Shown here in pieces: positions 41,523-61,488 of a stretch of DNA of 64,000 bases (the first letter of the stretch is position 1; each line of letters starts with the position of its first letter). Location of the stretch: assembly GCF_000217815.1 (NCBI RefSeq), contig NC_015707.1:434001-498000 (forward strand), in the 5' to 3' direction. The position numbers and the translations under genes are program-made. Origin of the DNA: Pseudothermotoga thermarum DSM 5069. GTDB taxonomy: Bacteria > Thermotogota > Thermotogae > Thermotogales > DSM-5069. The notes under the pieces were generated by a model. It worked only from the letters and a program-made list of their open reading frames with translations, did no database searches and was not told the origin of the DNA.

Positions 41523-41645
41523 TTGAATAGTCTTGATAGTTTTGACAGATCAAATAGTTTCTTTGATGTTGTTTGTGTAAACTGGTGGTGGCTTTGGGGG
41601 ATGCCCTCCTTGAAGGGTTCCCCTAAAGCCACGTTGATCTTGTAA
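41523..41645 (+). CDS. trpL: trp leader peptide
   Basis: A ~40-codon frame starting at TTG (41523; GGGGG about 11 nt upstream) and ending at TAA 41643-41645. It carries Trp-Trp-Trp-Leu-Trp at 41583-41597. The open frame extends up to 41463, but that start lies inside the promoter. The start codon is the weak point; the Trp run, its place 1 nt before attenuator segment A, and the terminator downstream are strong support. Confidence 0.78.
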   Translation: MNSLDSFDRSNSFFDVVCVNWWWLWGMPSLKGSPKATLIL

Positions 41646-41708
41646 AAAGCTTTAGGGGACTTCGTAAAAAAGGAGGGCATCCCAGAAAAGGGATGCCCTC
41701 CTTTTTTT
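41598..41708 (+). promoter_or_regulatory. trp operon attenuator (antiterminator/terminator switch)
   Basis: Segments: A GGGATGCCCTCCTT (41598-41611), B TTCCCCTAAAGC (41618-41629), C GCTTTAGGGGA (41649-41659), D AAGGAGGGCATCCC (41670-41683), E identical to A (41690-41703) followed by T7. A:D pairs perfectly over 14 bp and encloses B:C; D:E is the terminator. A ribosome held at the first Trp codons leaves A free to trap D, so the operon is read; translation through to the TAA covers A and lets D:E form. Confidence 0.88.
41670..41708 (+). terminator. trp attenuator terminator
   Basis: AAGGAGGGCATCCC/GGGATGCCCTCCTT with a 6-nt AGAAAA loop, then TTTTT. 50 bp before trpE. Confidence 0.9.
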
Positions 41709-41757
41709 GTAAGGCGTGGATGATCTGTGAAAACTTGTAAGTCGAGGTGTTGGTGTT

Positions 41758-43083
41758 ATGTTGAAACTGAGCGGTTTAGAAATCAACTTACCATCATTTA
41801 AATCCTGTTACATTGAAAATTGTGATGTTGCAAATATCGATTTTGATCGTTTGAATACTGAATTTTTCTTCTTCGAATCATCCAAGTTAAAGGCTTTGTG
41901 TATGGACAAATTACTTCGTGTCCTGGTTTTTCAAGACAGGATAGAAATTAGTAGTCAAGAGAAGAAAAAAGTCATTCACGATGATCCACTATCAATTTTT
42001 GACCAGATTTTGGATTTTTTGATAGAAAAAAATGCCTTTGTTGTATGTCAGTTCAACTACGACGCAGTGAATTTGCTTGAGGACATTTATTCAACTGATG
42101 AACCATGCATAATCGTTGATCTTTATGGGAAAAACCTTTTGTTTGACAAAACCTCTGGTTTGTGTGAGTTTATAACGCTTGAAAGGGTGAAAGAAACTGA
42201 TTTTTTGAAATTAGAAAAGTATTCTGAAAGTGTTTCAAAGTGCAAAAGTAAGGTGATTTATGCTACGCCAAAGGATTACTACATAGATATCGTCAAACAA
42301 GCAAAAGAAGATATCAGAAACGGCGAAATCTTTCAAATTGTTCTTTCTCAAATAGTTTTGGTCGAAAGTGATATATCCACCAGCCAATTGTTTTACCAGA
42401 TGAGAAAGATAAATCCCTCAGAATACAGCATTGTGATAAACGAGAACAACAGACAAGTTATATGCTTCTCTCCTGAGACACTTTTGACGAAGAAGGGCAA
42501 CATCGTAAAAACCTTTCCCATAGCCGGAACTTACCGAATAAAACCTCAGGATGATGTCGAGCAAAAAAAGCTGGAAATTTTGACTGACAAGAAGGAGATG
42601 AGTGAACACGTCATGCTCGTAGATTTGGCAAGAAATGATCTTGGAAGAATATCCAAACCTGGAAGCGTAAAAGTTGAAGAATATCTGAAGATAAAGCAAC
42701 TTTACAACCTCATACACGTGTATTCGGTTGTCTGTGGAGAGCTTGAGGAAAAAAGTATTACAAAGGTTATACTTTCTACCTTTCCAGCAGGTACGCTCAC
42801 CGGTGCACCAAAGGTTAGAGCAATGCAATTGATTGAAAAATACGAAAAGCAAAGAAGAGGCCTTTATGGTGGGGCGATTGGTTACATCTTCAAAGACGAG
42901 TTTGACTTAGCGATAGCGATAAGGATGGCTATTAAAAACAAGGAAAACAACGTTTTTCGGCTTCAAAGTGGTGCAGGAATTGTGAACTTATCAATACCGG
43001 AAAACGAATATCAAGAATGCCTGACAAAGCTAAGGGCATTCTTCACCGTGATGGGGGTGAACGAGGATGATATTGCTCATTGA
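41758..43083 (+). CDS. trpE: Anthranilate synthase component I TrpE
   Basis: 441 aa. Makes anthranilate from chorismate with ammonia delivered by TrpG. An FFESSK segment near residue 38 corresponds to the LLES-type Trp feedback site. Catalytic half: NGEIFQIVLSQ, FSPETLL, PIAGTYRI, EHVMLVDLARNDLGRI, LIHVYSVVCGEL, and PAGTLTGAPKVRAM. Ends overlapping trpG by 17 nt. First structural gene of the attenuated trpEGDCFBA operon. Confidence 0.97.
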   Translation: MLKLSGLEINLPSFKSCYIENCDVANIDFDRLNTEFFFFESSKLKALCMDKLLRVLVFQDRIEISSQEKKKVIHDDPLSIFDQILDFLIEKNAFVVCQFNYDAVNLLEDIYSTDEPCIIVDLYGKNLLFDKTSGLCEFITLERVKETDFLKLEKYSESVSKCKSKVIYATPKDYYIDIVKQAKEDIRNGEIFQIVLSQIVLVESDISTSQLFYQMRKINPSEYSIVINENNRQVICFSPETLLTKKGNIVKTFPIAGTYRIKPQDDVEQKKLEILTDKKEMSEHVMLVDLARNDLGRISKPGSVKVEEYLKIKQLYNLIHVYSVVCGELEEKSITKVILSTFPAGTLTGAPKVRAMQLIEKYEKQRRGLYGGAIGYIFKDEFDLAIAIRMAIKNKENNVFRLQSGAGIVNLSIPENEYQECLTKLRAFFTVMGVNEDDIAH

Positions 43084-43678
43084 CAACTACGATTCGTTTA
43101 CTTTCAATCTTTATCAAATGATTGCCGTCAAAACGAAGGTGGTTGTGTTCAGAAACGACAAAATTTCAATTGACACAATAAGAAAACTTAAACCATCTGG
43201 TATAGTGATCTCACCTGGTCCAGGTAGTCCAAAAGACGCGGGAATAAGCAAGGAGGTTGTTCAGAATTTTGCTGGAATCATTCCAATTCTTGGTGTATGC
43301 CTTGGTCATCAAGTCATTGGAGAGTGCTTCGACGGCAAAATTGTTCACGCAAAAGAGATTTACCATGGCATGAAGTCGCAAATCAGGTTGTTAGAAGCTG
43401 GCAAGAAAAGTCGTTTGTTCAAATCGGTTCCTGAAACATTTTCTGCAGGTCGATACCACTCACTTGTTGTTGAGAAATCTGCTTCTTTGAAGAAACTCAA
43501 GATTGCCGCAGTCAGTGAAGATGAGGAAATAATGGCTCTTGTGAACGACAAACTCAAAATCTACGGAATACAGTTTCACCCAGAGTCAATACTCACCACA
43601 GTTGGCGAAACGATCATTGATAATTTTCTCGAAATTTGTTACGAGGGGGTAAAGATGCATGCTCACCGAAGCGCTTGA
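43067..43678 (+). CDS. trpG: Anthranilate synthase component II (glutaminase) TrpG
   Basis: 203 aa class I amidotransferase. [15 protein letters not shown] at the start, [10 protein letters not shown], nucleophile Cys in [11 protein letters not shown], and His/Glu in QFHPESILT. In T. maritima this domain is fused to TrpD; here the two are separate, with frames overlapping by 20 nt. Confidence 0.96.
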
Positions 43679-44669
43679 AGCGGTGACAAACAGGAAGAAT
43701 CTTGATTACGAATCTGTGAGACGAATTATAGATACTATCCTGGACCAAGAACTAGATGAGATAAAATTTGGTGCTTTTCTTGCGGCTTTAAAAACAAAAG
43801 GTGAAACCGTGGATGAAATTCTTGCCTTCATAGATGCCTTTTACGAAAAAGCCCGAAAACTTAACTATCATCATCCTTTAACTGTTGATACCTGTGGAAC
43901 CGGTGGGGATGGAAAGGGTACTTTCAACATTTCAACCGCTTCGGCGATTGTTTTAAGCTGTTTTGATGTTAAAGTTGCAAAACATGGAAACAGAAGTGTT
44001 ACAAGCCAATCCGGTTCTGCCGATGTTCTGGAAAAACTTGGCATCGACATATTTGCCGATGAAGAAAGAATTTTGGAAGGCCTTGAGAAACACAACTTTG
44101 CCTTCTTGTTCGCACCACTTTATCATCCGGCGATGAAAAAGGTGGCTAACCTTAGGAAAGCACTTGGGATAAGAACAGTTTTCAACATCCTTGGTCCACT
44201 TCTGAATCCCGTTTCGTTGAACTATCAAATTGTTGGAACATTCAGTTTTGAGGTTCAAGACAAGGTGGCGGCAATATTGAGAGGAAGAAGAAAAAGGGCT
44301 GCTGTTGTGCATAGCTTCGATGGTTTAGACGAAGTTTCCGTTTGCCAAAAAACAAGGGTATTGGAGGTGGTAAACGATGAGATAAAAGAGTATAACCTTG
44401 ATCCAAAGGATTTTGGGATCAACTTTGAGATCGAAGCTATCAAAGGTTCTACGCCAGAGGAAAATGCAAAGATTCTTTTGAAAATCTTTGAAAAAGAAAA
44501 GTCACCGTACTTTTGGGCGGTCGTGTTGAACTGTGGACTGGCTTTGTACATTTGCGAACTGGCAAGAGATGTTCAAGAGGGAATAAGCCTTGCCTCAAAA
44601 ATGATCGAAACTGGAAAAGCTAAATCAAAGCTCAAAGACCTTTTGACATTCTACAAACCAAGAGGGTGA
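43659..44669 (+). CDS. trpD: Anthranilate phosphoribosyltransferase TrpD
   Basis: 336 aa. Adds phosphoribose from PRPP to anthranilate. Glycine-rich PRPP site [62 protein letters not shown], and SFDGLDEVS. Overlaps trpG; 6 bp to trpC. Confidence 0.97.
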
Positions 44670-44675
44670 AGAACG

Positions 44676-45452
44676 ATGAGTGTTCTGGCGAAAATCTTGA
44701 AACACAAAAGGCAGGAAGTGGAAAAGTTCAAACAACTTCTACCAATTATCGAGATCGAGAAAATTGCATTTGAAAAAGCAAGTAACGATTTTGGGCAAAA
44801 CAAATTCAAGGAAATTTACAAAAGAGAGAAGTTCTACGTGATTGGTGAGATAAAAAGATCGTCTCCTTCGGAGGGTGTTATCAACGATAAGGTGGATGTA
44901 AAAAACTTGGCAAAGACCTACGAGACTTTGGGATTTTTCGCCGTTTCAGTGTTAACTGACCACAAGTTTTTCAACGGTTCGGAGGAAGATTTGATTCAAA
45001 TCAAGCAGACTGTTTCTATACCGGTTCTTCGAAAGGAGTTCATAATCGATCTATGGCAGGTTTACCAAACCAAACTTTTGAATGCTGATGCGGCATTACT
45101 CATTACAAAGGCACTTTCCGATGATGAGCTGTCGAGGTACATAAGAACCTTTGAATTTCTCAACATTGTGCCGCTGGTTGAGGTTGAAAATGAAAGTGAG
45201 ATCGAAAAAGCTTTGAAGGCAGGAGCAAAGGTAATAGGCATAAACAACAGAAATTTGAACGACTTGACTGTCGATGTGAGAAAAACTGAGAGGTTGTTGA
45301 AGTATATCCCAAAGGAAATAGTTGTGATAAGCGAAAGTGGTATCAAAACGAAACAAGATTTTCGTTACATAAGATCACTTGGTGTCGATGGGTGTTTGAT
45401 AGGCACGGCTTTCATGAGATCGTGTAACCCACTTGACATAGTGGGTGAATGA
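44676..45452 (+). CDS. trpC: Indole-3-glycerol phosphate synthase TrpC
   Basis: 258 aa (beta/alpha)8 enzyme. Catalytic Lys/Glu motifs VIGEIKRSSPSEGVI (Glu and Lys near 52-54), LTDHKFFNGSEEDL, PVLRKEFIIDLWQVYQ, GINNRNLNDLTVD, and SESGIKT. Overlaps the start region of trpF. Confidence 0.96.
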   Translation: MSVLAKILKHKRQEVEKFKQLLPIIEIEKIAFEKASNDFGQNKFKEIYKREKFYVIGEIKRSSPSEGVINDKVDVKNLAKTYETLGFFAVSVLTDHKFFNGSEEDLIQIKQTVSIPVLRKEFIIDLWQVYQTKLLNADAALLITKALSDDELSRYIRTFEFLNIVPLVEVENESEIEKALKAGAKVIGINNRNLNDLTVDVRKTERLLKYIPKEIVVISESGIKTKQDFRYIRSLGVDGCLIGTAFMRSCNPLDIVGE

Positions 45453-45453
45453 T

Positions 45454-46062
45454 ATGTTGGTGAAATTCTGTGGGCTAAAGCGCATTGAAGATATCCAAAT
45501 GTGTAACAAACTTTTTCCGGATATGATCGGCTTAATCTTTGCAGAAAGTCCAAGAAAAGTGGATGTAGAACTTGCAGAAAAAATTCTTAAAGTTAAAGGT
45601 AATTTTATAAAAGCCGTTGGGGTATTTAAAAACCAAAGTGTGTTTGATGTTCTAAAAATCGCCAAACGTTTGGGTTTGGATTTTGTGCAACTACATGGTG
45701 AAGAGGACCTTGAATACGTGAAATTTTTAAGGCAAGAAGGTGTAAGCGTCATCAAAGCTGTGGAGATAAGTTCTGAGGAAGATTTGAGAAAGGCCGAAAA
45801 ATACGTGAATTTGGTAAACTTTGTACTTCTTGACAGACCAAAAGGTAGCGATTTGGACATAACACAAATAGCCAAACTTGCGAAGTTTCCTTACATTATC
45901 GCCGGCGGAATAACTTTGGAAAATTTGGACAAATTTTTGGCTTTGAGCCCTGTGGGAATAGACATCAGTTCCGGTATAGAAACCAACGGCCTAAAAGATT
46001 ATAAGAAAATGAAAGGCATAATTGAGCGCGTAAAACCTTTGAGAAATGGGGGATTAGGATGA
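45454..46062 (+). CDS. trpF: Phosphoribosylanthranilate isomerase TrpF
   Basis: About 202 aa from ATG 45454 ([15 protein letters not shown]), with a GTG at 45445 as alternative. Catalytic Cys in KFCGLK, general acid Asp in LLDRPKGSD, plus [12 protein letters not shown] and [14 protein letters not shown]. The following [15 protein letters not shown] is the usual phosphate-binding end. Overlaps trpB by 4 nt. Confidence 0.94.
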
Positions 46063-47237
46063 ACAGGTACTTTGGAAGATTTGGTGGTATGTACGCACCT
46101 GAAACGTTGATGCCAGCACTTTTGGAAATCGAAAAACAGTTCTGCGAACTTATAAACAGAGAGGATTTTCTAAACGAGTACAATTATTATCTCAAATACT
46201 ATGTTGGTAGACCTTCTCCGCTTTATTACGCGAAAAACTTAAGCAACTATCTCAACGTAAAGATCTACCTAAAAAGGGAAGATTTGAACCACACTGGAGC
46301 TCACAAAATCAACAATTGCATTGGACAAGCTTTACTTGCAAAGTACATGAAAAAAACTAGATTGATTGCTGAAACCGGTGCAGGACAACATGGTGTTGCA
46401 ACCGCTACAGTCGCTGCACTGTTCGGTATGGAGTGTGAGATATTCATGGGTGAGGAAGATGCAAAAAGACAATTTCACAACGTTCAAAGGATGAAGATGC
46501 TTGGAAGCAAGGTGCGAATCGTCAGCAAGGGAAGTAAAACTTTGAAGGATGCCATAAACGAAGCGATGCGCGATTGGAGCGAAACTTTTGAGTACACTTT
46601 CTACGTCTTTGGTACGGCGGCTGGGCCACATCCGTTTCCAACGATAGTGAAATACTTTCAAAGTGTAGTTGGAAGAGAGGCAAAACAACAAATACTTGAA
46701 TTGGAAGGAAGGCTTCCCGACTATGTATTTGCCTGTGTTGGAGGAGGATCGAATGCGATAGGAATTTTTTCCGCGTTCATAGATGATCCGCAGGTGAAAC
46801 TCGTCGGAGTTGAGGGGGCGGGTGAAGGAGTTGAAACAAAGAGAACTGCCGCCACTCTTTGCAGTGGTTCTGTTGGGATTTTACATGGAGCAAAAACGTA
46901 CGTTCTACAGGATGAAGAAGGACAAATTCAGATTACCCATTCCATTTCAGCTGGTCTTGACTATCCTGGAGTTGGACCTGAGCACGCTTATTTAAAAGAG
47001 ATTGGGAGAGTTGAATACGTTGGGATTCGTGATGAAGAAGCGGTAGAAGCCTTCCTGCTTTTAACAAGGTTGGAGGGAATAATTCCTGCACTTGAAAGTA
47101 GTCATGCTTTAGCGGAAGTCATAAAAAGAGCTAAGGCGGGATTTTTTAAACCTTCAGATGTTGTGATTGTCAATTTGTCTGGAAGAGGGGATAAAGATAT
47201 TAACACTGTACTTAAGTGGAAAGGTGATGAAGTATGA
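46059..47237 (+). CDS. trpB: Tryptophan synthase beta chain TrpB
   Basis: 392 aa, the TrpB1 type. PLP Lys in [13 protein letters not shown] (near residue 82), [35 protein letters not shown], the phosphate-binding [20 protein letters not shown], and NLSGRGDKD. Forms the alpha2-beta2 complex with the next gene product; 4-nt overlaps on both sides. Confidence 0.98.
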
Positions 47238-48001
47238 ACTTGATAGAGGAAAAATTTGACCAACTTAAAGAAAAAGGCGAAAAAGCGTTCATCGGTTATG
47301 TCACGTTTGGCTATCCATCGTTCGTTGAAACGTTGGATTTCATAAACATTGTTTATTCTTACGTTGACATTTTGGAAATAGGTTTTCCATTCTCAGATCC
47401 AATAGCAGATGGCGAGATAATTCAAAAAGCATCGGTTAAAGCTCTTTCAGAAGGTGTCAAGTTGAACGACCTTTTCAGAAGCTTAGGTCACATCAAGAAA
47501 GATAAACCGATCGTGTTGATGTTGTATGCCAACCTTGTTCACAGAATGGGCGAGGATAACTTTTACAAACTTTGTGAGTTGAACGGAGTTGATGGAATAA
47601 TAATTCCGGATGTACCTTATGAGGAGAGTTTTCAATTCAGGCAAGCTGCTGACAAGCATCATGTAGTTTACATAGATCTTGTTTCTGTATCTTCTCTTGA
47701 AAGGGCAAAAACGATAGCAATCAAAAGTCAAGGTTTTCTTTACTGCGTATCGAGAAAAGGTGTAACAGGCTTTAAAGGAGAGATGGATGACAAACTTCAC
47801 ATTTTTCTTAAGGAGCTCAGGAAAGTTACAACCACTCCGTTGGTGGTTGGTTTTGGTATTAAAAATACAAACGATGTTTTGAAGATCAAAGACCTTGTTG
47901 ACGGAGTTGTCATCGGAAGCGCAATAATTGCGAAAATGGATGAGGGTAAAGAACAGCTTGAGAATTTCTTAAAGGAAATTAGGTATGTTTTGAAAAATTG
48001 A
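47234..48001 (+). CDS. trpA: Tryptophan synthase alpha chain TrpA
   Basis: 255 aa (beta/alpha)8 enzyme that cleaves indole-glycerol phosphate. Catalytic Glu in [19 protein letters not shown] and Asp in [15 protein letters not shown]; phosphate loop [13 protein letters not shown] and GVVIGSAII. Last gene of the trp operon. Confidence 0.97.
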
Positions 48002-48002
48002 C

Positions 48003-48027
48003 AGGGGGAGTTAAAGTCCCCCCTTCT
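48003..48027. terminator. Terminator between convergent trp and aro operons
   Basis: Short stem GGGGGA/TCCCCC with a GTTAAAG loop, followed by CTTCTT. The T-tract is weak, but its place between two convergent operons supports the call. Confidence 0.55.
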
Positions 48028-49881
48028 TCATCCTTCAAGCGAGAAAGCATCAAGTTTGGAAATCTCATCAAATCTTCCAACGATTCTATAGAAAGTAGTT
48101 AGCTGCCTCAACTCTTTAATATCTTCGTCGCTCAAGTTGGCTTCTACCTCGGTGAAGAACACGTAATCACCTGGAAGTATCTTTGAGGGCCGTGATTCAA
48201 GTTTTCTCAAGTTAAATCCTTTAGCGTAAAAGATATCGAGAACTTTCTTCAAAGCACCTGGCTTGTTTTCAACTGCGAAAAAGAGTGAAGTTATCTTTCC
48301 TACAGTGTTTCCTGTTCTTTTTCTTATCAAATAAAATCGGGTGATGTTTCTTTCCTGAAGGTCTTGAATGCCCTTTCTCAACACTTGCAATTTGTTGAGT
48401 TTGGCTGCATTCTCCGACATGATGGCTGCCGAAAAATCGTCAAGCACTTTTGCCGCATCGCTTGTGGAAGAAGTATACCTTATCTCAGCGTGAGGAAGGT
48501 AGTTGGTTATGAAATTCATGCACTGACTCACCGCCTGTGGATGTGAATATATGTACTTTATGTTTTTAAAATCAATTGGTTTCTTTGCTACAAGACAGTG
48601 ATTCACCTCAAGTTTTGTTTCACCAAATACTTCAACATCGTGAAGCATCAGCGCATCGAGGGTTGGAATAACCGTTCCACCAATCGTGTTTTCTATCGGT
48701 ACAATTCCATAATCTGCTTCTTTATTTTCAACGGCTTTCATCACTTCTTCAACGTTTGTGTAGTATTTGAGCGGCAGTCTTGATCCAACAAGTTTCACCG
48801 CAACTTCATCGCTAAAGCTACCTTTCGGTCCAATCAAAGCAATTGTCTTTTTTATACCAAACAGAGAATATTCCTCAGCCTTTGTGACATCCATTATCTG
48901 ACGAAATATTTTCTCAACTTCCCAAGAGTTCAACTTGGTTTTGCGAGCAATTTTTGCAAGTTTTTCTTCTTCTACCTCTGTATTTTCTATTGTTTCCTGT
49001 AGTTCCATTTTCTTAATAGCTATCTTTTTTGCAATTTCAACTCTTTTCTCAATCAACCTTAGAATAACTTCGTCTATAACGCTTATCGCATACCTCATCT
49101 CCTGCAAATTTGAATAATCCTCGTTCAGTTTTGAAAGTTCAAGCATTAAACCGCTAAAAGCGGAATCATTCAATTTGTTTCTTAAATCGAGAAATATCTT
49201 TTCAAACATTGTCTTGTCCTCAAAGGCTTTGTTGAATTCAAGTATTTTTTCCACAAACTGCTTTCTGTGTTCTTCCGCGTTTTTCTGAATCAGATGGTAC
49301 ATTTCCCAATTTTCTTTCAAAACTCTTGCAGCCAGTTTTGCCAAAGCTTTGTAAATTCTGGTCGAAAAACCCATATCCTCGTAAACGCTGGCAAAACAAA
49401 GCAAAAGGAAATGACTTATTCCCTGTATCTTCGCCATCTGCTTGTCATGTTCCTCGCAGGAAAGCTTGGTTATCAAAGCTCCTTCTTTTTTAAACTCTTC
49501 AATTATTTGCCATGCTTCCTCTCTCTGCGATTCTTCTACGATTATCAAGTGCGATAGAGATACATTGGCCTCATCACCAAACAAAGGATGAACACTGAGA
49601 AAATCAAAACCGCTTTCTTTGAACAAAGGCACGGAAAAGCCTTTCACCGAGGCAACATCCACCAAGAGCGGGTTCTTTCTCGTATCCTTTTTGATGTGTT
49701 CAAGCGCTTTTTTTATTTGTCCCATCGGTGTACAAACAAAAATCACATCGAAATCTGAGATATCTTCAACTTCGTTTTTTGAAGGATCAACGTCAAAACC
49801 TTTCACAAAGTACTGACGTTGGATAAAAAAATCTTTGAAAAAAGATCCCATTTTTCCAACACCGTAGATCAAGATTTTCAT
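48028..49881 (-). CDS. Trifunctional prephenate dehydrogenase-chorismate mutase-prephenate dehydratase
   Basis: 617 aa with four parts. Residues 1-260 are TyrA-like: Rossmann IYGVGKMGSFF, FVCTPMGQI, SVHPLFGDE, QGISHFLLLCF. Residues ~262-350 are an AroQ-type chorismate mutase helix bundle: RYAISVIDEVILRLIEKRVEIAKKIA. Residues ~352-530 are prephenate dehydratase: IALIGPKGSFSDEVAV, DYGIVPIENTIGGTV, YIYSHPQAVSQC, RNITRFYLI. Residues ~535-610 are ACT: FAVENKPGALKKVLDIF and LESRPSK, the Phe-binding motif. It can supply both the Tyr and Phe branches. Last gene of the aro operon, starting after AGGAGG. Confidence 0.93.
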   Translation of the reverse strand: MKILIYGVGKMGSFFKDFFIQRQYFVKGFDVDPSKNEVEDISDFDVIFVCTPMGQIKKALEHIKKDTRKNPLLVDVASVKGFSVPLFKESGFDFLSVHPLFGDEANVSLSHLIIVEESQREEAWQIIEEFKKEGALITKLSCEEHDKQMAKIQGISHFLLLCFASVYEDMGFSTRIYKALAKLAARVLKENWEMYHLIQKNAEEHRKQFVEKILEFNKAFEDKTMFEKIFLDLRNKLNDSAFSGLMLELSKLNEDYSNLQEMRYAISVIDEVILRLIEKRVEIAKKIAIKKMELQETIENTEVEEEKLAKIARKTKLNSWEVEKIFRQIMDVTKAEEYSLFGIKKTIALIGPKGSFSDEVAVKLVGSRLPLKYYTNVEEVMKAVENKEADYGIVPIENTIGGTVIPTLDALMLHDVEVFGETKLEVNHCLVAKKPIDFKNIKYIYSHPQAVSQCMNFITNYLPHAEIRYTSSTSDAAKVLDDFSAAIMSENAAKLNKLQVLRKGIQDLQERNITRFYLIRKRTGNTVGKITSLFFAVENKPGALKKVLDIFYAKGFNLRKLESRPSKILPGDYVFFTEVEANLSDEDIKELRQLTTFYRIVGRFDEISKLDAFSLEG

Positions 49882-49908
49882 GCAACAAACCTCCTGGAGG
49901 CTTTTGAT

Positions 49909-50346
49909 TTAGCCAAGCTTTTTCCGATCCACAAGATAATCGATGGCATAAAGGTATCCAAGATATCCAAGGCCACTTATAACTCCATCCACAACCGGGC
50001 TTATCACCGACTTGTGTCGAAATTTTTCTCTTTTGAATATGTTTGAAATGTGGACTTCAACCGTGGGAAGGTTAACGGCACTCAAAGCATCCCTTATCGC
50101 TATGCTGTAATGGGTATAAGCGCCTGGATTTATGACTATACCGTCAGCCCATTCCCTCGCGCGATGAATTTCGTCGATGATATCGCCTTCTGAAGAATAT
50201 TGAACAATCTTCACAGTTACATTTCTTTGTCTTGCCCTTTCTTGTATCATTTGGTTGATCTCTTCAAGAGTTGTTCTTCCATAAACATGAGGTTCCCTGA
50301 TGCCCAACAAGTTCAAATTCGGTCCATGGATCACCAATATGTTCAT
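49909..50346 (-). CDS. aroQ: 3-dehydroquinate dehydratase, type II, AroQ
   Basis: 145 aa, the normal size of the dodecameric type II enzyme. HGPNLNLLGIREPHVYGRTTLEEI, QYSSEGDIIDEIHRA, NPGAYTHYSIAIRDAL (catalytic His), and EVHISNIFKREKFRHKSVISP. Third step of the shikimate pathway. ATGA overlap with aroKB. Confidence 0.97.
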   Translation of the reverse strand: MNILVIHGPNLNLLGIREPHVYGRTTLEEINQMIQERARQRNVTVKIVQYSSEGDIIDEIHRAREWADGIVINPGAYTHYSIAIRDALSAVNLPTVEVHISNIFKREKFRHKSVISPVVDGVISGLGYLGYLYAIDYLVDRKKLG

Positions 50347-51989
50347 GATAAAACTCCCTCCATTTGCTCGATCAAATTCTTTACTTCAGAAGGGTCACAT
50401 TCAATTACCCTGACATCCCCTATTTTAAAAGGTATGGTAAATCTCAATTTCCCACGAGCAGCTTTTTTGTCGAATTTCATGTATTTCAAAAGATCTCTTA
50501 CGCTCGATAGCTCTATTTGTCTTGGAGAGGTCGGAAGCCCAAGGGAGTTCAAAACATTCTCTATACGATCTTTTGTTGAAAGATCGGCATACCCCATCAA
50601 GTGTGAAAGCATTGTTTCTAAAACAAGGCCAACTGAGACTGCCTTTGCGTGGCTTATTTGGTAATTCAAACAAGCTTCTATTGCATGACCAAAGGTATGT
50701 CCTAAGTTCAACACCATTCTAAGTCCTAAGTCCTTTTCATCCTGTTCTACGATTTTCCCTTTCAATTTTACGCAGAAAGAAACCACGTCAAAAACCACTT
50801 TTGGATCTCTTTCAAGGATTTTTGAAACGTTTTGAGCCAAATAGTTGAAAAACTTTTTTCCATCGATTACGGCTGATTTAACGACTTCCGCCAACCCTTC
50901 GGTGAAAATTTCATTGGGTAATATTTCCAAAAACTTTGTGTCTGTCACCACAAAACTCGGTTGATGGAAGGACCCAAGAAAATTCTTTTTCTCTCCATAG
51001 TTAACTGCAACCTTTCCTCCTATGCTCGAATCAACTTGGGCAAGCATTGTCGTGGGGACATAAATCCATTTTATCCCTCTCATGTATATGGCAGCCGCAA
51101 AGCCTGTCACATCCCCTATTACTCCACCGCCAACGGCGACAACAAACGACTCTCGATCCAAGCCAAATTTTGCAAATTCATCTATTATCTTAAACAAAGT
51201 TTCCGGTGATTTTCTCTCTTCACTGTCCTCTATCAATATCACGTATGACTCGATCCCTTCTTTGTTCAATTCTTCTACCATTTTCTTTGCAATGATTTGG
51301 TTCAAAAGAGGGTTGGTTACAACCGCAACTTTTGAAGGCATTCTTTTTTTCAAAAAGTCGATCACGGAATCTTTTGTTATGTTGTATCCTATTCTAACGT
51401 TATAACTTGTGGTTTGAGTTTTTACAGTTATGATTTCCCCTTCAATGTCTAAATTTCTTTCCTCCAATCCGTAGCTTTCCAGTTTTCTAGCAATTTCCCG
51501 TGCTATTTTCTCGGGTTGCAAGCTCGCATCCACAGTGATATCGGCTATTTGTCTGTAAATCGGTTCTCGTTGTTTTTGAAGAACTTCAAGTTTGTTCCTC
51601 TTTTCAGATGTATTTGCAGAATTGAGAAGAGGTCTTGATGAATCATTCTCAAGTCGTGCCACAAGAATGTCTATCGGAGCATTGAGGAAAACCACTACAC
51701 AATTCTTTTTCAAAAGATCAACGTTTTCATTCTTCGTGACGGCACCTGCCCCAATGGATATCACGACATTTTGAAGCTTGCAAACTTTTTCCACCATCTG
51801 TTTCTCAAATTGCCTAAAACCTTCCTCACCGTAAATTTGGAATATCTTTGGAATATCCATAGAGGTTGTATCTTCAACTAGTTGATCTGTATCGATGAAA
51901 AACCATCCCAGTTTTTCCGCAAGAATTTTTCCAACAGTTGTCTTTCCGCTACCGGATAAACCGCACAAAACTACGCTTTTTTTCACCAC
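50343..51989 (-). CDS. aroKB: Fused shikimate kinase/3-dehydroquinate synthase AroKB
   Basis: 548 aa. Residues 1-~165 are shikimate kinase (Walker A GLSGSGKTT at 10-18, FIDTDQLVE, FRQFEKQMVEKV). Residues ~185-545 are 3-dehydroquinate synthase (VAVGGGVIGDVTGFAAAIYMRGI, PTTMLAQVDSSIGGKVAVNYGEKKN, GLAEVVKSAVI, LNLGHTFGHAIE). The same fusion is known in Thermotoga; the two steps are not consecutive in the pathway. GTG start overlapping aroC. Confidence 0.96.
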   Translation of the reverse strand: MVKKSVVLCGLSGSGKTTVGKILAEKLGWFFIDTDQLVEDTTSMDIPKIFQIYGEEGFRQFEKQMVEKVCKLQNVVISIGAGAVTKNENVDLLKKNCVVVFLNAPIDILVARLENDSSRPLLNSANTSEKRNKLEVLQKQREPIYRQIADITVDASLQPEKIAREIARKLESYGLEERNLDIEGEIITVKTQTTSYNVRIGYNITKDSVIDFLKKRMPSKVAVVTNPLLNQIIAKKMVEELNKEGIESYVILIEDSEERKSPETLFKIIDEFAKFGLDRESFVVAVGGGVIGDVTGFAAAIYMRGIKWIYVPTTMLAQVDSSIGGKVAVNYGEKKNFLGSFHQPSFVVTDTKFLEILPNEIFTEGLAEVVKSAVIDGKKFFNYLAQNVSKILERDPKVVFDVVSFCVKLKGKIVEQDEKDLGLRMVLNLGHTFGHAIEACLNYQISHAKAVSVGLVLETMLSHLMGYADLSTKDRIENVLNSLGLPTSPRQIELSSVRDLLKYMKFDKKAARGKLRFTIPFKIGDVRVIECDPSEVKNLIEQMEGVLS

Positions 51990-53071
51990 CTATCTCCTCC
52001 TTTAACTTCCAAAAGTGCATCGGCAAGAACAAGAGCAACCATAGCTTCTGCTACAACCGCTGCCGATCCAACTGCGCAAACGTCGGATCGTTCAACATGT
52101 GCAGGGCATGGTTGATCGTTTCTAACGTCTATCGACGGTAAAGGATTTGCCAACGTCGGTATGGGTTTCATAGCTGCTCTGATGAAAATGATTTCTCCAT
52201 TGCTGATTCCCCCCTCAATTCCTCCAGCCTTGTTGGTTGGTCGTTTTGGCTTTTGAATTGGGTCGTGTGCTTCACTTCCAAAAAGTTTTGCAAGTTGAAA
52301 TCCAAGCCCAATTTCGACTCCCTTCACCCCGGGTATACTCATTATGGATGCGGCCAGACGTGCATCCAACCTTCTGTCCCAGTGAACATGGCTCCCCAAT
52401 CCTACAGGTACTCCAACAACTGCAACTTCAAAAATTCCTCCCAAGGTATCTCCCTTTTCTTTTGCTTGATCAATCAGTTTTTTCATCCTTTCTGAATCTT
52501 CCAAATTTGGGCATCGAACCTCCGAAAGTTCTGCAAGTTGAAAAAGTTTTTCAACAACGTCTACTTTGCTCATGCGTTCTTCAATTGGTGGAAGGTTTGC
52601 CTCTATTTCTCCTATACTCACAACCCAGCTGAAAATTTTTATCCCTTCTTTTTGAAGAAGTTTTTTGGCAAAGTATCCGCATGCGACTCTCGCTGCAGTT
52701 TCTCTAGCGCTTGCTCTTTCTGCAATCGGGCGGCAATCTTCAAAACCATATTTGATCATGCCAGGAAAATCGGCATGTCCCGGTCTTGGTGCGTATATGG
52801 GGACGTATTTACCCTTCCAGTTTTCGTAATCCTTGTTTGGGATTAAAACGCATATCGGGGCGCCCGTGGTTTTACCGTTCAGAACACCTGAAACAATTGA
52901 AAAATCATCTTTCTCTATGTTTGCCCTCGCTCCTCTTCCGTATCCTTTTCTTCTTCGAGAAAGTTCCTTTGAAAGTTCTTCTTCGTTTACTTCAATACCA
53001 GCTGGCATACCTTCCAGGATGACGACCAATCCTTGGCCATGTGATTCACCCGCGGTCAAAAACCTCAACAT
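51983..53071 (-). CDS. aroC: Chorismate synthase AroC
   Basis: About 362 aa from ATG 53071 (MLRFLTAGESHGQ); the open frame reaches 53083. Makes chorismate from EPSP with reduced FMN. Seen: TAGESHGQGLVVILEG, RRRKGYGRGAR, RPGHADFPGMIKYG, RASARETAARVACG, GGIEGGISNGE. The start overlaps the aroE stop (ATGTTGA). Confidence 0.96.
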   Translation of the reverse strand: MLRFLTAGESHGQGLVVILEGMPAGIEVNEEELSKELSRRRKGYGRGARANIEKDDFSIVSGVLNGKTTGAPICVLIPNKDYENWKGKYVPIYAPRPGHADFPGMIKYGFEDCRPIAERASARETAARVACGYFAKKLLQKEGIKIFSWVVSIGEIEANLPPIEERMSKVDVVEKLFQLAELSEVRCPNLEDSERMKKLIDQAKEKGDTLGGIFEVAVVGVPVGLGSHVHWDRRLDARLAASIMSIPGVKGVEIGLGFQLAKLFGSEAHDPIQKPKRPTNKAGGIEGGISNGEIIFIRAAMKPIPTLANPLPSIDVRNDQPCPAHVERSDVCAVGSAAVVAEAMVALVLADALLEVKGGDRW

Positions 53072-53931
53072 TCCAACCACCAACTTCCTATTCTTTCTTT
53101 CAAAGAATCTATCATTTCCTCAACAGGACATTTGCGGTTTGTGAAAATCTCAAAAGCGTAAGCACCTTGCCACACAAGTATCTCAATCCCGCTTATCGTT
53201 GTATAACCAAGCCCTTTTGCTCTTGAATACAATAGTGTTGGTTTTTCACTGTAGGAATAATCACAAAAAACTTTCCCTCTGCCATTTTCTGAAAAGCAAC
53301 CTTCAAGCAAAGCCGCCGCTCCTTCGGGCAAACAGTTGATCACAATTTCGACTTGCTTTAAAATATCGATTATTTGTTTCTCATCAAGATTCAAGATCTC
53401 AAAATTCGATTTTGGAAAAAGTTTGGCGAAGTGATCAACAAGTTCCTGTGCTCTTTGTAAGGTTCTGTTTGCCACAAAGATGTGTTTTGCCCCAAGGAGT
53501 AAAATCGATGCAACCGCAGCTGAAGCCGCACCACCGGCTCCAAGAATCAGAGCAGAATTAATTGAATTTCTTTTACGAATCCTAAGCGCTTTTATCAAAG
53601 CTGGCCCATCGGTGTTGTAACCAAAAGCTTTGATTGAAACCATTTTTTTGAACACAACAGTGTTGACAGCTTGACAAATTTTAGCAAAAGGACTTTTCAC
53701 ATCGCAAAGCTCAAAAACTTTGTTTTTGTGGGGAATGGTGACATTGAATCCCACCATTTGTCCAGCTGCTTCTTTGAAAAATTCGCTCAAACACTCTGGG
53801 GGAACAGGGATGGCTTCGTATTTCCAATCAAATCCAATGGTTTTCAAAGCTGCGTTTTGAATTATCGGAGAAAAAGTTTTTTCCAAAGGCCAACCTATTA
53901 CGGCTAATTCTGGTAATTTTTTGCTTTTCAT
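53065..53931 (-). CDS. aroE: Shikimate dehydrogenase AroE
   Basis: 288 aa NADP-dependent enzyme reducing 3-dehydroshikimate. VIGWPLEKTFSPIIQN binds shikimate; GFNVTIPHKNKVFELCD carries the catalytic Lys; GAGGAASAAVASILLLG and FVANRTLQRAQELV bind NADP; VWQGAYAFEIFTN is the usual C-terminal motif. Confidence 0.96.
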   Translation of the reverse strand: MKSKKLPELAVIGWPLEKTFSPIIQNAALKTIGFDWKYEAIPVPPECLSEFFKEAAGQMVGFNVTIPHKNKVFELCDVKSPFAKICQAVNTVVFKKMVSIKAFGYNTDGPALIKALRIRKRNSINSALILGAGGAASAAVASILLLGAKHIFVANRTLQRAQELVDHFAKLFPKSNFEILNLDEKQIIDILKQVEIVINCLPEGAAALLEGCFSENGRGKVFCDYSYSEKPTLLYSRAKGLGYTTISGIEILVWQGAYAFEIFTNRKCPVEEMIDSLKERIGSWWLEC

Positions 53932-53943
53932 GTTAGATCACCT

Positions 53944-55236
53944 TCAAATTTGCTTGCAAACACTTTTGAGCATTTGAAAGAAGTTTGGGAAAGAGATGGC
54001 CACACAGTCTGCATTTTTGATCTTTGACCTACCATCGATTGAGATCGCGGCTACCGCCATCGCCATGGCTATTCTGTGATCGTTAAAACTGTCCAATTCC
54101 GCCGGTTTCAGCGGTTTGCCACCTGTTATCACAAAACCATCTTCAAGTTCTTCAACTTCTGCTCCAAGATTTCTCAAATTGTAAACTATAGCCTTTATCC
54201 TGTCGCTTTCTTTTACACGAAGTTCTTTCGCATCTTTTACCACACTTTGGCCTTCGGCAAACGTACAAGCCACGGCAATTATGGGGATTTCATCTATAAG
54301 TCTTGGAACAATCTCTCTTTCGATGGTTATTCCCCTAAGTCTTCCACCTTTAATCAATATGTCTGCAACTTTTTCTCCACCCCAGATTCTTTCATCCATT
54401 ATCTTTATGTCACATCCCATTTGCTTTAGTATGTCTATGATTCCAGTTCTTGTTGGATTTATCCCAACGTCGCGTATAAGCAGTTGTGACCCTTCGTTTA
54501 TCGCTGCAGCAACCATAAAGAAGGCAGCTGATGAGATATCTCCAGGAACTGTTATTTGTGAAGCCGAAAGTTTTTCAGCCGGTGTGATTTTTACAAAACC
54601 ATCACCCATAACTACGTTTGCTCCAAAATGTTTGAGCATGATTTCGGTGTGATCACGTGTTTTTGGTTTTTCATAAATTACAGTCTCTCCATCTGCATAC
54701 AAACCGGCAAAGAGCAAAGCCGATTTCACCTGAGCACTGGCAACGGGTAAGCTATAAGAAATCCCTTTGAGCTGACCACCTCGAACAATCAGTGGTGCGT
54801 AATTTCCGTCGTCTTTTCCTTCGATTTTCGCTCCCATCATTCTCAGCGGTTGAACAACCCTTTTCATTGGTCTTTTTGAAAGAGATTCGTCCCCAGTCAA
54901 CACCGCTTCAAAATTTTGTCCCGCAAGGATACCTAAAAGTAATCTCATCGTGGTGCCAGAATTTCCTGCGTAAAGCTCTGTTTCGGGTTTTTTCAAACCT
55001 CTCAAACCTTTTCCTTTCACGATAACTGTATCTTGATCTTTGAACTCGATTTCCACTCCCATTTTCCTAAAGCAATCCACCGTTCTCAAGCAATCATCCG
55101 CAAAAAGAAACTTCCTTACAACAGTTGTACCTTCCGCTATAGAACCGATCATGATACTTCGGTGCGATATAGACTTATCCGGTGGCGGAATTATTTGACC
55201 ATCAACTCTTACTTTTCCCTCTACGAAGATATCCAC
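53944..55236 (-). CDS. aroA: EPSP synthase AroA
   Basis: 430 aa from GTG 55236, which follows AGGGAGG by 8-9 nt; the open frame reaches back to 55317 inside aroF. Adds PEP to shikimate 3-phosphate. PPDKSISHRSIMIGSIAEGTT, ELYAGNSGTTMRLLLGILAGQ, MKRVVQPLRMMGA, LPVASAQVKSALLFAGLYADG, PGDISSAAFFMVAA, and KESDRIKAI all match the family. The N-terminal PDKSISHR and NSGTTMR resemble class II-like thermophile enzymes; glyphosate response is not predicted. Confidence 0.96.
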   Translation of the reverse strand: MDIFVEGKVRVDGQIIPPPDKSISHRSIMIGSIAEGTTVVRKFLFADDCLRTVDCFRKMGVEIEFKDQDTVIVKGKGLRGLKKPETELYAGNSGTTMRLLLGILAGQNFEAVLTGDESLSKRPMKRVVQPLRMMGAKIEGKDDGNYAPLIVRGGQLKGISYSLPVASAQVKSALLFAGLYADGETVIYEKPKTRDHTEIMLKHFGANVVMGDGFVKITPAEKLSASQITVPGDISSAAFFMVAAAINEGSQLLIRDVGINPTRTGIIDILKQMGCDIKIMDERIWGGEKVADILIKGGRLRGITIEREIVPRLIDEIPIIAVACTFAEGQSVVKDAKELRVKESDRIKAIVYNLRNLGAEVEELEDGFVITGGKPLKPAELDSFNDHRIAMAMAVAAISIDGRSKIKNADCVAISFPNFFQMLKSVCKQI

Positions 55237-55249
55237 CTTCGAACCCTCC

Positions 55250-56263
55250 CTAGAATTTCCTACCAACTGCAGGTGCAATTTTTTTGAGATCTTCACAGAG
55301 CTTTGCGAACTGTTCAAAATTCAAGGACTGCGGGCCGTCGGACAAAGCTTTTTCAGGCTCAGGGTGAACCTCGATCAAAATCCCATCGGCACCAGCGGCA
55401 AGGGCAGCTTTGCTCATCGGCGGCACAAGTTTCGAACTCCCTGTCCCATGGCTTGGATCAACTATAACCGGAAGATGACTTATTTGTTTGACAAGGGCAA
55501 CTGCGCTCAGATCCAAGGTATTTCTGGTTTTTTGCTCAAAAGTTCTTATGCCTCTTTCGCAGAGGATAACTTGAAAGTTTCCCTCGTTCATTATGTAATC
55601 AGCAGCAGCAAGCCATTCATCGATCGTTGCAGCGACACCTCTTTTTAAAAGTACAGGTTTCCCCGATCTACCTACAGCTTTAAGCAGTTCAAAGTTCTGC
55701 ATGTTTCTGGCTCCGATTTGAAGGATATCGGCATATTCGGAAACCAAGTTCACGTGTTCTGGGCTCATCACTTCTGTGACGATGAGCAAACCGTATTTCT
55801 CACGTACCTCAGCCAAGATTTTGAGCCCTTCTAAACCTAACCCTTGGAAGGAATACGGTGACGTTCTTGGTTTGAACGCACCGCCTCTGAAGATTTTTAT
55901 GCCACAGCTTTTTACAAATTCCGCTGTTTTGAAAGTTTGTTCTCTGCTTTCCACGGCACATGGTCCTGCCATCACAACGAATTCTTCTTTACCTATTTCA
56001 ACATCTCCAACTTTGACCACTGTAGGCTTTGGGTTGAAAAGTCTGCTTGAAAGCTTGTAAGGGTCAGTCACATAAACTACCTTTTCTACCCCTTCCATCA
56101 CTTCGATAGCTTTACCGTTCAGCTTGCGCCGATCACCTATTACACCTATGATGATCACCTCCTCTCCTTCTGAAAGATGAACTTTTAGCCCCGCTTCTTC
56201 AACCGTTTTGCAAACTTTTTTGATACTCTCTTCACTTGCGTCCTTTCGCATCACTATGACCAA
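55250..56263 (-). CDS. aroF: DAHP synthase (type I-beta with N-terminal regulatory domain) AroF
   Basis: 337 aa. Entry enzyme: PEP plus erythrose 4-phosphate to DAHP. Residues 1-~70 form the ferredoxin/ACT-like domain that in T. maritima binds Phe/Tyr for feedback control. The barrel holds [56 protein letters not shown] and [12 protein letters not shown] start 56263 after AAAGGAGGGG. First gene of the aro operon, 35 bp after the attenuator. Confidence 0.97.
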
Positions 56264-56298
56264 TCGAACCCCTCCTTTGCCAGTTTGTTTAATTGCTT

Positions 56299-56336
56299 AA
56301 AAAAAAGAGGGCATCCTTTTTTGGATGCCCTCTTCC
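56299..56336 (-). terminator. aro attenuator terminator
   Basis: Minus strand: GGAAGAGGGCATCC, AAAAAA loop, GGATGCCCTCTT, then T8. Lies between the leader peptide and aroF. Confidence 0.92.
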
Positions 56337-56403
56337 TTTTACTTGGATTCCCCTACGCCTATTTGGCAACAGGTTTTAGGGGAACCCCGGAAGAGGGCAT
56401 TCC
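56299..56403 (-). promoter_or_regulatory. aro operon attenuator (pan-aromatic)
   Basis: Minus-strand segments: A GGAATGCCCTCTTCC (56403-56389), B TTCCCCTA (56386-56379), C TAGGGGAA (56355-56348), D GGAAGAGGGCATCC (56336-56323), E GGATGCCCTCTT (56316-56305) with T-tract. A:D (14 bp, one bulge) encloses B:C and excludes terminator D:E. The aromatic codon run ends 5 nt before A, so a ribosome held early in the run leaves A free to trap D (operon on). Additional pairing CTACGCCTAT/ATAGGCGTAG joins the codon run to segment C's flank. Confidence 0.88.
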
Positions 56404-56475
56404 CCTAAACCAATAGGCGTAGAAGAATTTCTTCGTTTGATTAACGATTAAACCTATTATACTTTTCAACATCAT
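56359..56475 (-). CDS. aro leader peptide with FFYAYWF run
   Basis: 38-40 codons from ATG 56475 or 56472 (TTG 56469 also possible; AAAGG upstream) to TAG 56359. It holds Phe-Phe-Tyr-Ala-Tyr-Trp-Phe at 56427-56407: three Phe, two Tyr, one Trp in seven codons. The peptide goes on RGMPSSGVPLKPVAK, similar to the trp leader's GMPSLKGSPK because both encode attenuator segment A. Translation would sense all three aromatic amino acids. Starts ~20 nt after the predicted transcription start. Confidence 0.85.
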   Translation of the reverse strand: MMLKSIIGLIVNQTKKFFYAYWFRGMPSSGVPLKPVAK

Positions 56476-56502
56476 CAACCTTTCGATGGTTGATTTTTAT
56501 AA

Positions 56503-56531
56503 AAAATACCAAATAATATTTGATTTGTCAA
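56503..56531 (-). promoter_or_regulatory. aro operon promoter
   Basis: Consensus TTGACA (56526-56531), 17-bp spacer, TATTTT (56503-56508) on the minus strand. The -35 lies about 10 bp from the end of the inverted-repeat element at 56541-56810. Confidence 0.75.
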
Positions 56532-59830: not shown

Positions 59831-61371
59831 GTCTCTTCAACCTCCTGGAGAGCTTCTCATAAGTCAGTCCGTATTTTTCCGCTATGTGGATGGCATAGGC
59901 AAGACCATCCGGTGGTTTTCTGAGAATTTTGTAGGTTCTTTGAGAAGGATCATCATCTCTGACGGTTGCAACCATGCTGACGACTTCAGAAGAACGTGTT
60001 GCAAGTTCGTCGAGAAAGGTAACAACAACGGCGATTGATCCTATATATAGAATATGATCCATCATCAATTCACCCAAGGCTAATGCATCCGAAAGTGTTG
60101 TCGAAGTGAATATTTCATTGATCACCACGATGCTTTTGCTTGTAGCTTTTTCAAGAATTTCACGCAATCTCAAAAGTTCATCTTGCAACCTTCCGGTGAG
60201 ATTTGAAACATCCTCTTCCCTTGGAAAATGTGTGAATAGGTTGTCAAAAAGATACAACTTCGCATCCGTTCCGGGCACACAAACGCCGATTGACATAAGC
60301 CAGTGTATTTGCCCAAAGGCTCTGGCAAAGGTTGTTTTGCCTCCCTGGTTTGGTCCAGTGATCACTATTATTCTTTCAGGATAATTCAAGACAAAATCGT
60401 TAGGAACAGTGCTATCAACCTTTGAAAATGCGAGTGCAAGATCAAAAACGTCATAACCGTACAGATGTTCTGTTGATTCAGAAACCTTTGGATAACAAAA
60501 CGGCAAGCCAGCGTCTTTTAAAGGCTGAATGAGATCAAGCCAGGAAAGGTAGAACTGAATTTCCCTTGCAAATCTTGTGATAGCAGGATCTGGAAAGTTT
60601 AGATACTTTTCACAGAAATCGTATAGGCTTGAAAAGACTTCTTTGTAGAGCTTTGACAGCATCTCTAACACCGCAGCTTCAACGTGTGCAGCAGCCGGAT
60701 TCTCAGTCAGCTTTTGCCGGTAATCCTTCACATCCCCTTGTCTGAACCTCTCAAAAAGCGCTAGAATCTGATTCGATAAGTCTGATTCGCCTTCATACTT
60801 TCTAACCCGAATCGTTCCGTTTTTTATGAACATACAGTATTCTACCTTTGAAAAATCCTTTCGAAGCTTCTGGACATATTCTAAGAGTCCATTGAAAAGC
60901 TCAGAGTTGGTGTAGCAAAACAAATATTCCGCAAAAGCTTTAAGTCCCTGTGATTTCAAGCTTCTTTTTGTCAGGTAATCGGTTAGGTTCAACACTTCCT
61001 TGCAGTAAGTTTCAGCGCAATCAAGCATATATCCACGGGGTCAAATAATTGTTTTCGTAGCTTTCTTCTGAACTAAGAGCTTTTCTGATCTCTGCCATCC
61101 GCTTATCCAATCTGTACATTTCTTCGGAAAAGCTTCCCAAAACCTTACGCAGCTGATTGTCTTCAAGTTCCCGCATGATCTCCTGTCTGTAAACAATCAA
61201 ACTTGGATCTTGCAAATTCGTGTAGAAAAACCGTTGCAAATCAAACTCCCTTTTTCTTCTTATGATCGGTTCGAAGATCTTGTCCAAGTTCAAATCTTTA
61301 AAACACTCTGGTTCTGTCTTATTTACAAGCATCTCCTGTTCTTTATTTTGAAAAAGTATGCTGTAAAACAT
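59805..61371 (-). pseudogene. MutS-like ATPase (first of pair), frameshifted in a C4 run
   Basis: Frame 1 runs from ATG 61371 (MFYSILFQNKEQEML) to LTPWIYA-stop at 61021; frame 2 resumes as RGYMLDCAETYCKEVLN and runs to 59805. Removing one C from CCCC (61037-61040, minus strand) gives LTRGYMLDC and a ~521-aa protein with Walker A TGPNQGGKTTFARAFGQIHW and Walker B VVINEIFTSTT. Either a real 1-nt insertion or an assembly error. The 3' part has an ATG at 61028 that could be used by itself. A TTTCACC/GGTGAAA hairpin covers the ribosome site of ATG 61371. Confidence 0.8.
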
Positions 61372-61407
61372 CGTTTCACCACCTTGGTGAAAATGCTTTA
61401 TAAAAGA

Positions 61408-61449
61408 AAAAACTCCTACAAGTGTGCGCTGAGCGCAACCTGTAGGAGT
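61408..61449 (-). terminator. Terminator of the fluoride riboswitch
   Basis: Minus strand: ACTCCTACAGGTTGCGC/GCGCACACTTGTAGGAGT, then TTTTTT. Its 5' arm (ACTCCTACAGG) is shared with the 3' end of the aptamer, so aptamer folding with fluoride prevents termination (ON switch). Confidence 0.9.
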
Positions 61450-61488
61450 CATCAGCCTCATGGCTATTAAAGGCGGACTCCATCGCCC
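61441..61488 (-). ncRNA. Fluoride riboswitch (crcB motif)
   Basis: Minus strand reads GGGCGATGGAGTCCGCC, TTTAATAGCC, ATGA, GGCTGATGACTCCTA. It has the conserved GGCGATGG..CGCC stem-loop, the AA linker, GCC/GGC stem, TGATGACTCC and the pseudoknot partner, closely matching the T. petrophila aptamer. It sits directly ahead of the MutS-like pair. No crcB/fluc or CLC-F exporter gene is seen in the window. Confidence 0.93.

Follow-up and report, generated by a model that had tools for sequence, protein, structure and literature searches.

The aro operon of the window (the whole 64-kb stretch of DNA analysed, from a heat-loving bacterium whose genome forms a single contig of 2,039,943 bases) is preceded by what we interpret as a ribosome-mediated transcription attenuator responding to aromatic amino acids, and we put the probability of this core mechanism at roughly 0.87. 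Leader and attenuator lie ahead of aroF on the minus strand (56475..56299). We observe a short leader ORF, competing helices, a set of aromatic codons placed where the switch boundary falls, and conservation of these features in relatives and paralogues; the most informative evidence comes from two sister copies, one ahead of trpE and one ahead of an ABC transporter.

A leader ORF with a run of aromatic codons ahead of the aro operon

The operon is made up as follows.

55250..56263, minus strand: aroF (DAHP synthase), first gene of the operon
53944..55317, minus strand: aroA (EPSP synthase)
53065..53931, minus strand: aroE (shikimate dehydrogenase)
51983..53083, minus strand: aroC (chorismate synthase)
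50343..51989, minus strand: aroK-aroB fusion
49909..50346, minus strand: aroQ (type II dehydroquinase)
48028..49881, minus strand: fusion of prephenate dehydrogenase (weak), chorismate mutase, prephenate dehydratase and ACT

This gene content agrees with an earlier note on this DNA, which described an operon running from DAHP synthase to a TyrA-mutase-PheA fusion, except that the TyrA (prephenate dehydrogenase) part is a weak match of 38.6 bits. The neighbouring trp operon, on the plus strand, converges with the aro operon (41523..56475), and the two form a complete aromatic-amino-acid island. Elsewhere in the window, a fluoride riboswitch (RF01734; 61436..61496, minus strand; 50.4 bits, above gathering) is located just upstream of a small ORF (61461..61021).

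Upstream of aroF, the following elements were recognised.

56503..56531, minus strand: predicted sigma-70 promoter, TTGACA and TATTTT spaced by 17 nt, the latter preceded by TG (consensus match only)
56359..56475, minus strand: leader peptide ORF MMLKSIIGLIVNQTKKFFYAYWFRGMPSSGVPLKPVAK, ending in a stop codon, with SD-like GAAAGG at 56484..56479 (ORF reading)
56407..56427, minus strand: aromatic sensor codons TTC TTC TAC GCC TAT TGG TTT, FFYAYWF (sequence reading)

Counted from the first ATG (56475), the leader ORF comprises 38 codons; the second ATG, at a better distance from GAAAGG, would give 37. Across both strands of the window, it is the sole short ORF with at least six aromatic codons in seven that include Phe, Tyr and Trp (1 observed versus 0.05 expected from shuffles). 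At looser thresholds (4/7 or 5/7), aromatic ORFs show no clear enrichment over chance in this AT-rich window, so we rely on position, structure and orthologues instead. A short leader ORF carrying codons for the end products of its operon is thus found at aroF, as in ribosome-mediated attenuators of the trpL/pheL type. The promoter had been described as directly visible; a consensus match is present, but matches of such quality occur at about chance frequency in the window (3 found versus 2.0 expected), so this plausible promoter does not by itself establish the transcription start.

Mutually exclusive helices in the leader RNA

The FFYAYWF leader and the A-to-E attenuator proposed ahead of aroF are all present on the minus strand, and the 201-nt leader region folds far better than its shuffles (z = -9.0).

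56400..56427, minus strand: segment A, which overlaps the sensor codons and FRG and supplies the 5′ strand of the protector hairpin (folding)
56389..56400, minus strand: segment B, ATGCCCTCTTCC, 5′ strand of the antiterminator, directly past the sensor codons and within the protector hairpin loop (folding, duplex energy, covariation)
56348..56384, minus strand: segment C, TTCCCCTAAA...CCAAATAGGCGTAGGGGAA, 3′ strand of the protector hairpin (folding)
56323..56336, minus strand: segment D, GGAAGAGGGCATCC, common to antiterminator (B:D) and terminator (D:E) (folding, duplex energy, covariation)
56299..56316, minus strand: segment E, GGATGCCCTCTT plus U-tract, 3′ arm of the intrinsic terminator (sequence, folding)

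Pairing of C with A keeps B in a loop, and the GGGGAATCC end of C can alternatively pair with GGGGTTCCCC within the antiterminator. The B:D duplex reaches -25.6 kcal/mol, a value equalled by none of 300 shuffles, and the strong terminator spans 56336..56305, followed by the U-tract to 56299 on the minus strand. Terminator and antiterminator are mutually exclusive by computation, as in trpL/pheL-type attenuators. Across the related elements described below, 93.5% of cells in the B:D helix are paired versus 55-58% when the strands are slid, and 35 cells have changed on both sides. At equilibrium and with no ribosome present, a transcript extending to D favours the antiterminator (0.86), indicating that termination requires coupled translation or early A:C folding.

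Ribosome position and the proposed mechanism

To model the effect of the ribosome, we blocked the RNA as far as 13 nt beyond the start of the A-site codon, disallowed pairing across the ribosome and read out the sequestration of D just before E is made. D was sequestered with the A site on any codon of FFYAYW and freed within 1-3 codons past the run; this switch was obtained at each temperature tried (37, 55, 70 and 77 °C) and for each footprint (10, 13 and 16 nt). Under the assumptions of this model, the stall position sets which helix forms, as expected of a trpL/pheL-type attenuator. As with every attenuator of this design, a ribosome halted farther upstream would leave B free too.

Among 17 genus representatives, aromatic residues occupy 0.66 of the eight codons before the RNA-defined boundary versus 0.09 elsewhere, with the same direction in 17/17; the boundary was derived from folding, with the peptide left out of the derivation. 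Some of this enrichment is unavoidable since the leaders were picked by their aromatic run, and the informative part is where the run stops, namely at the boundary, with a median offset of one codon. Most aro leaders from other genera gave the ribosome-position switch as well, among them those of the Thermotoga-type loci, whose terminators were set by hand for these folds. Leaders of the FSWINAY type showed no clear switch in the blocking model (drop of 0.05-0.13 in the three tested), and two Thermotogota leaders had a late boundary.

We propose that, when charged Phe-, Tyr- or Trp-tRNA is scarce, the ribosome would stall in FFYAYWF and prevent segment A from closing the A:C hairpin, leaving B free. 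Free B would then pair with D, with C self-folded inside the helix, as computed folding of the stalled state indicates; no D:E terminator would form, and the aro operon would be transcribed. With aromatic tRNAs charged, the ribosome would pass B toward the stop codon and B would be covered or back in the A:C hairpin; a ribosome at the stop codon itself does not directly cover B, and there the model relies on blocked pairing across the ribosome. With B unavailable, D:E would form and transcription would end before aroF. For this scheme, we infer the transcription start, leader translation, stalling and the direction of the response.

Sister copies ahead of trpE and a TrpX-like ABC transporter

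The first sister copy belongs to the neighbouring trp operon; neither of the two copies figures in the earlier note.

41523..41645, plus strand: sister leader ahead of trpE, ...VNWWWLWGMPSLKGSPKATLIL followed by a stop codon, with a TTG start (ORF reading, folding)
41583..41597, plus strand: sensor codons WWWLW (ORF reading)
41672..41708, plus strand: trpE attenuator terminator (folding)

The WWWLW sensor matches the product of its own operon, and in the blocking folds release occurs within it. The 5′ arm of the trpE terminator can alternatively pair with GGATGCCCTCC at about 41599..41610. The aro and trp attenuators have closely similar stems, and the two copies are 73% identical (E 3e-9; alignment score 112 versus at most 41 for shuffles). 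A molybdenum riboswitch candidate on the trp terminator scored 26.6 bits, short of the 36 needed, and was not accepted as a member.

The third copy lies outside the window, at genome positions 1961962..1962092, ahead of genes for a substrate-binding protein, a permease and an ATPase. It is 90% identical to the aro copy over 129 nt (E 2.8e-45), and its leader, MGVTNLGKFFMLVNTATFSYAYWFRGTPSSGIPLRFTAN followed by a stop codon, carries the sensor run FSYAYWF. The pattern F-[SA]-Y-A-Y-W-W-F-R-G-x-P-S-S is kept in nine relatives of the family, which are all those with a transporter match. These nine leaders have unlike N-terminal halves, a variable non-aromatic position, synonymous changes and a whole-codon W indel, and the transporter leaders of more distant genera read FAYYWWF, FAYAYWF or YFYFWYW.

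The substrate-binding protein matches Pfam ABC_sub_bind at 255.5 bits and scores 239.3 bits with the TrpX model (NCBIfam NF041285), below its cut-off of 390. Its nearest solved relatives are 3LKV, 6HNI and 3LFT, which in the TrpX/CD0873/VC_1101 family bind Phe, Tyr and Trp, respectively (PMC6816091). At the specificity positions given in that work, it has Asp for the Glu of the Tyr binder and Tyr for the Gln of the Trp binder. Judged from these residues and relatives, the transporter likely carries aromatic amino acids, with hints that the ligand is Tyr. The trpX of Streptococcus suis is reported to be under a T-box (PMC9382623), in contrast to the leader-peptide attenuator found here.

Aromatic leaders at aroF across Thermotogota

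At the threshold used, 58 of 103 Thermotogota genomes had an aroF match, and the survey covered 56 aroF loci with usable upstream DNA. Leaders with an aromatic run were found at 42 of these, in several aroF lineages, and no leader was seen at the other 14, mostly in genomes with a shorter aroF match. Tyr occurs in 42/42 leaders, Trp in about 32, Phe in about 32 and all three in about 30. The runs include YYYFWF (Thermotoga-type), YYWYF, FYYWYF, YYYWF and YYYYYWF (Petrotoga-type), FWFYY, YNFWYY, YWYY and NYWWFYYY, the two labels denoting what we take to be the corresponding genera. Aromatic codons are kept while others vary, the pattern that the earlier note had proposed to look for, both across the phylum and in the nine transporter orthologues. 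Some relatives have leaders with Tyr only among the aromatics (YYYYYC, YAYYYYY), so three-way sensing is not universal. Many genomes with an aromatic aroF leader have a Trp-only leader at trpE (NWWWHL, TWWWHL).

Two leaders sit upstream of an apparent pair of aroH (chorismate mutase type) and aroF; at these loci aroH, not aroF, would be first in the regulated operon. The Thermotoga-type loci apparently have one extra alternating helix, with the stop codon within its first strand; in simulation, a stalled ribosome would let helix 1:2 form, whereupon strand 3 is free and can block the terminator.

Upstream of Desulfobacterota/Myxococcota-type aroF (4 loci), we also saw short ORFs in which a long run consists of Phe only (FFFFFFF, FFFFCFF). 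Several Clostridia (6 loci) carry short ORFs with mixed Phe/Tyr runs upstream of aroF, such as GFYFYGYYFFEP and EYFFYFFNFFF, and these are possibly independent leaders.

Alternative explanations

That the aro leader senses all three of Phe, Tyr and Trp is a reading we hold tentatively, at somewhat under even odds. Nearly as credible is an attenuator that senses mainly one aromatic amino acid, with the remaining aromatic codons incidental or tuning: all 42 leaders have Tyr, but about ten lack Phe and about ten lack Trp, the Trp codons lie nearest the switch point, and AroR of Corynebacterium glutamicum holds Phe-Tyr-Phe and responds to Phe only (PMC11802643). AroR thus has a Tyr codon yet no Tyr response, meaning that codons in a run do not prove sensing. 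Set against a single sensor, all three residues fall within 11 codons in about 30 of the 42 leaders, in an order that differs by lineage; all codons of the run behave alike in the blocking folds; and Trp is kept in the aro leader despite a separate Trp-only trpE leader in the same genome.

A plain terminator or an RNA-only switch (riboswitch or T-box) with an untranslated short ORF would account for two exclusive states without a ribosome, but we regard it as highly improbable: the covariance model of the T-box (RF00230) found none in the whole genome, the element has no Rfam match above gathering, and conservation of the aromatic codons follows the class of amino acid and not the nucleotides, with whole-codon indels. 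Phe_leader (RF01859) was among the models scored and was not accepted, at 31.7 bits versus a gathering threshold of 55 (E 0.061). Convergence of the aro, trp and transporter attenuators on GC-rich stems, in place of duplication, is likewise very unlikely. Other genera have aro leaders with the same layout and unrelated stem sequences, showing that the layout itself can recur; within this one genome, however, the identities of 90% over 129 nt (aro versus transporter) and 73% (aro versus trp) and the score far above shuffles argue for duplication.

Relation to known attenuators

Neshat 2014 is reportedly the study behind the aroR leader of C. glutamicum aroF. That leader, with its Phe-Tyr-Phe codons (PMC11802643, PMC4046766), resembles ours as a leader-peptide attenuator with mixed aromatic codons before a DAHP synthase operon, but belongs to another, unrelated phylum, and neither a Trp codon in the run nor sister copies on trp and transporter genes are reported for it (PMC11802643, PMC4046766). 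The ilvGMEDA leader of Escherichia coli, with 15 branched-chain residues among 32 (PMC6123439), likewise reads several related amino acids (three) of a branched pathway, although these are branched-chain instead of aromatic and the host is gammaproteobacterial. The idea that a multi-amino-acid leader would be exceptional is therefore not upheld, as both ilvL (PMC6123439) and aroR (PMC11802643, PMC4046766) were already known. With the enterobacterial trpL and pheL, the aro element shares the logic of stall, antiterminator and terminator; trpL and pheL differ in reading one amino acid each, the aro antiterminator strand lies within the leader ORF and the protector hairpin loop, and the Thermotoga-type relatives appear to have a further alternating helix.

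In the open literature, we found no description of attenuation of aromatic genes in Thermotoga or in Thermotogota at large, and an earlier mention in Lopatovskaya 2010, said to be a broad comparative survey of attenuators, is possible. The word "maritima" is absent from PMC1173090, which tabulates attenuators predicted upstream of tyrA operons (Table 7). Judged by the open literature, two things are new: mixed Phe/Tyr/Trp leaders throughout the phylum, and a set of three sister attenuators in one genome with sensors matched to their operons.

Origin and meaning of the shared switch

The trp and aro island is absent from the other ten genomes of the family, in which no aroF, aroC or trpE was recognisable, and the nine relatives with the transporter leader all lack the shikimate pathway. 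In a quick tree only, the aroF of the window groups with that of Thermosediminibacter (Bacillota; support 99), away from the two other Thermotogota aroF lineages, and Thermosediminibacter also provides its best match outside Thermotogota (73%). Upstream of the Thermosediminibacter aroF, a terminator is present and no aromatic leader was seen. The AroC of the window shows up to 55% identity to outside genomes versus at most 47% to Thermotogota. Since aroF groups with a Bacillota gene, the aro operon was probably acquired and then came under a duplicate of the transporter's attenuator, already present in the family; loss of the aro and trp genes in all relatives is an alternative that retains some probability.

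Extending the acquisition reading, we tentatively suggest, with slightly less than an even chance of being right, that a pan-aromatic OR-gate attenuator (Phe/Tyr/Trp) may have behaved as a movable module. It would have served first on an importer in a lineage unable to make aromatics, been copied to the acquired shikimate operon, and given rise to a recoded Trp-only copy on trp.

If these readings are true, one genome would hold three sister attenuators, set apart chiefly by their sensor codons and the operons served. Such a set would be a natural experiment on how the choice of codons determines the specificity of an attenuator, and on whether each amino acid is sensed by a mixed leader. The range of classical attenuation at aromatic genes would extend across Thermotogota, and a newly acquired pathway would have been brought under existing regulation through a copied RNA switch.
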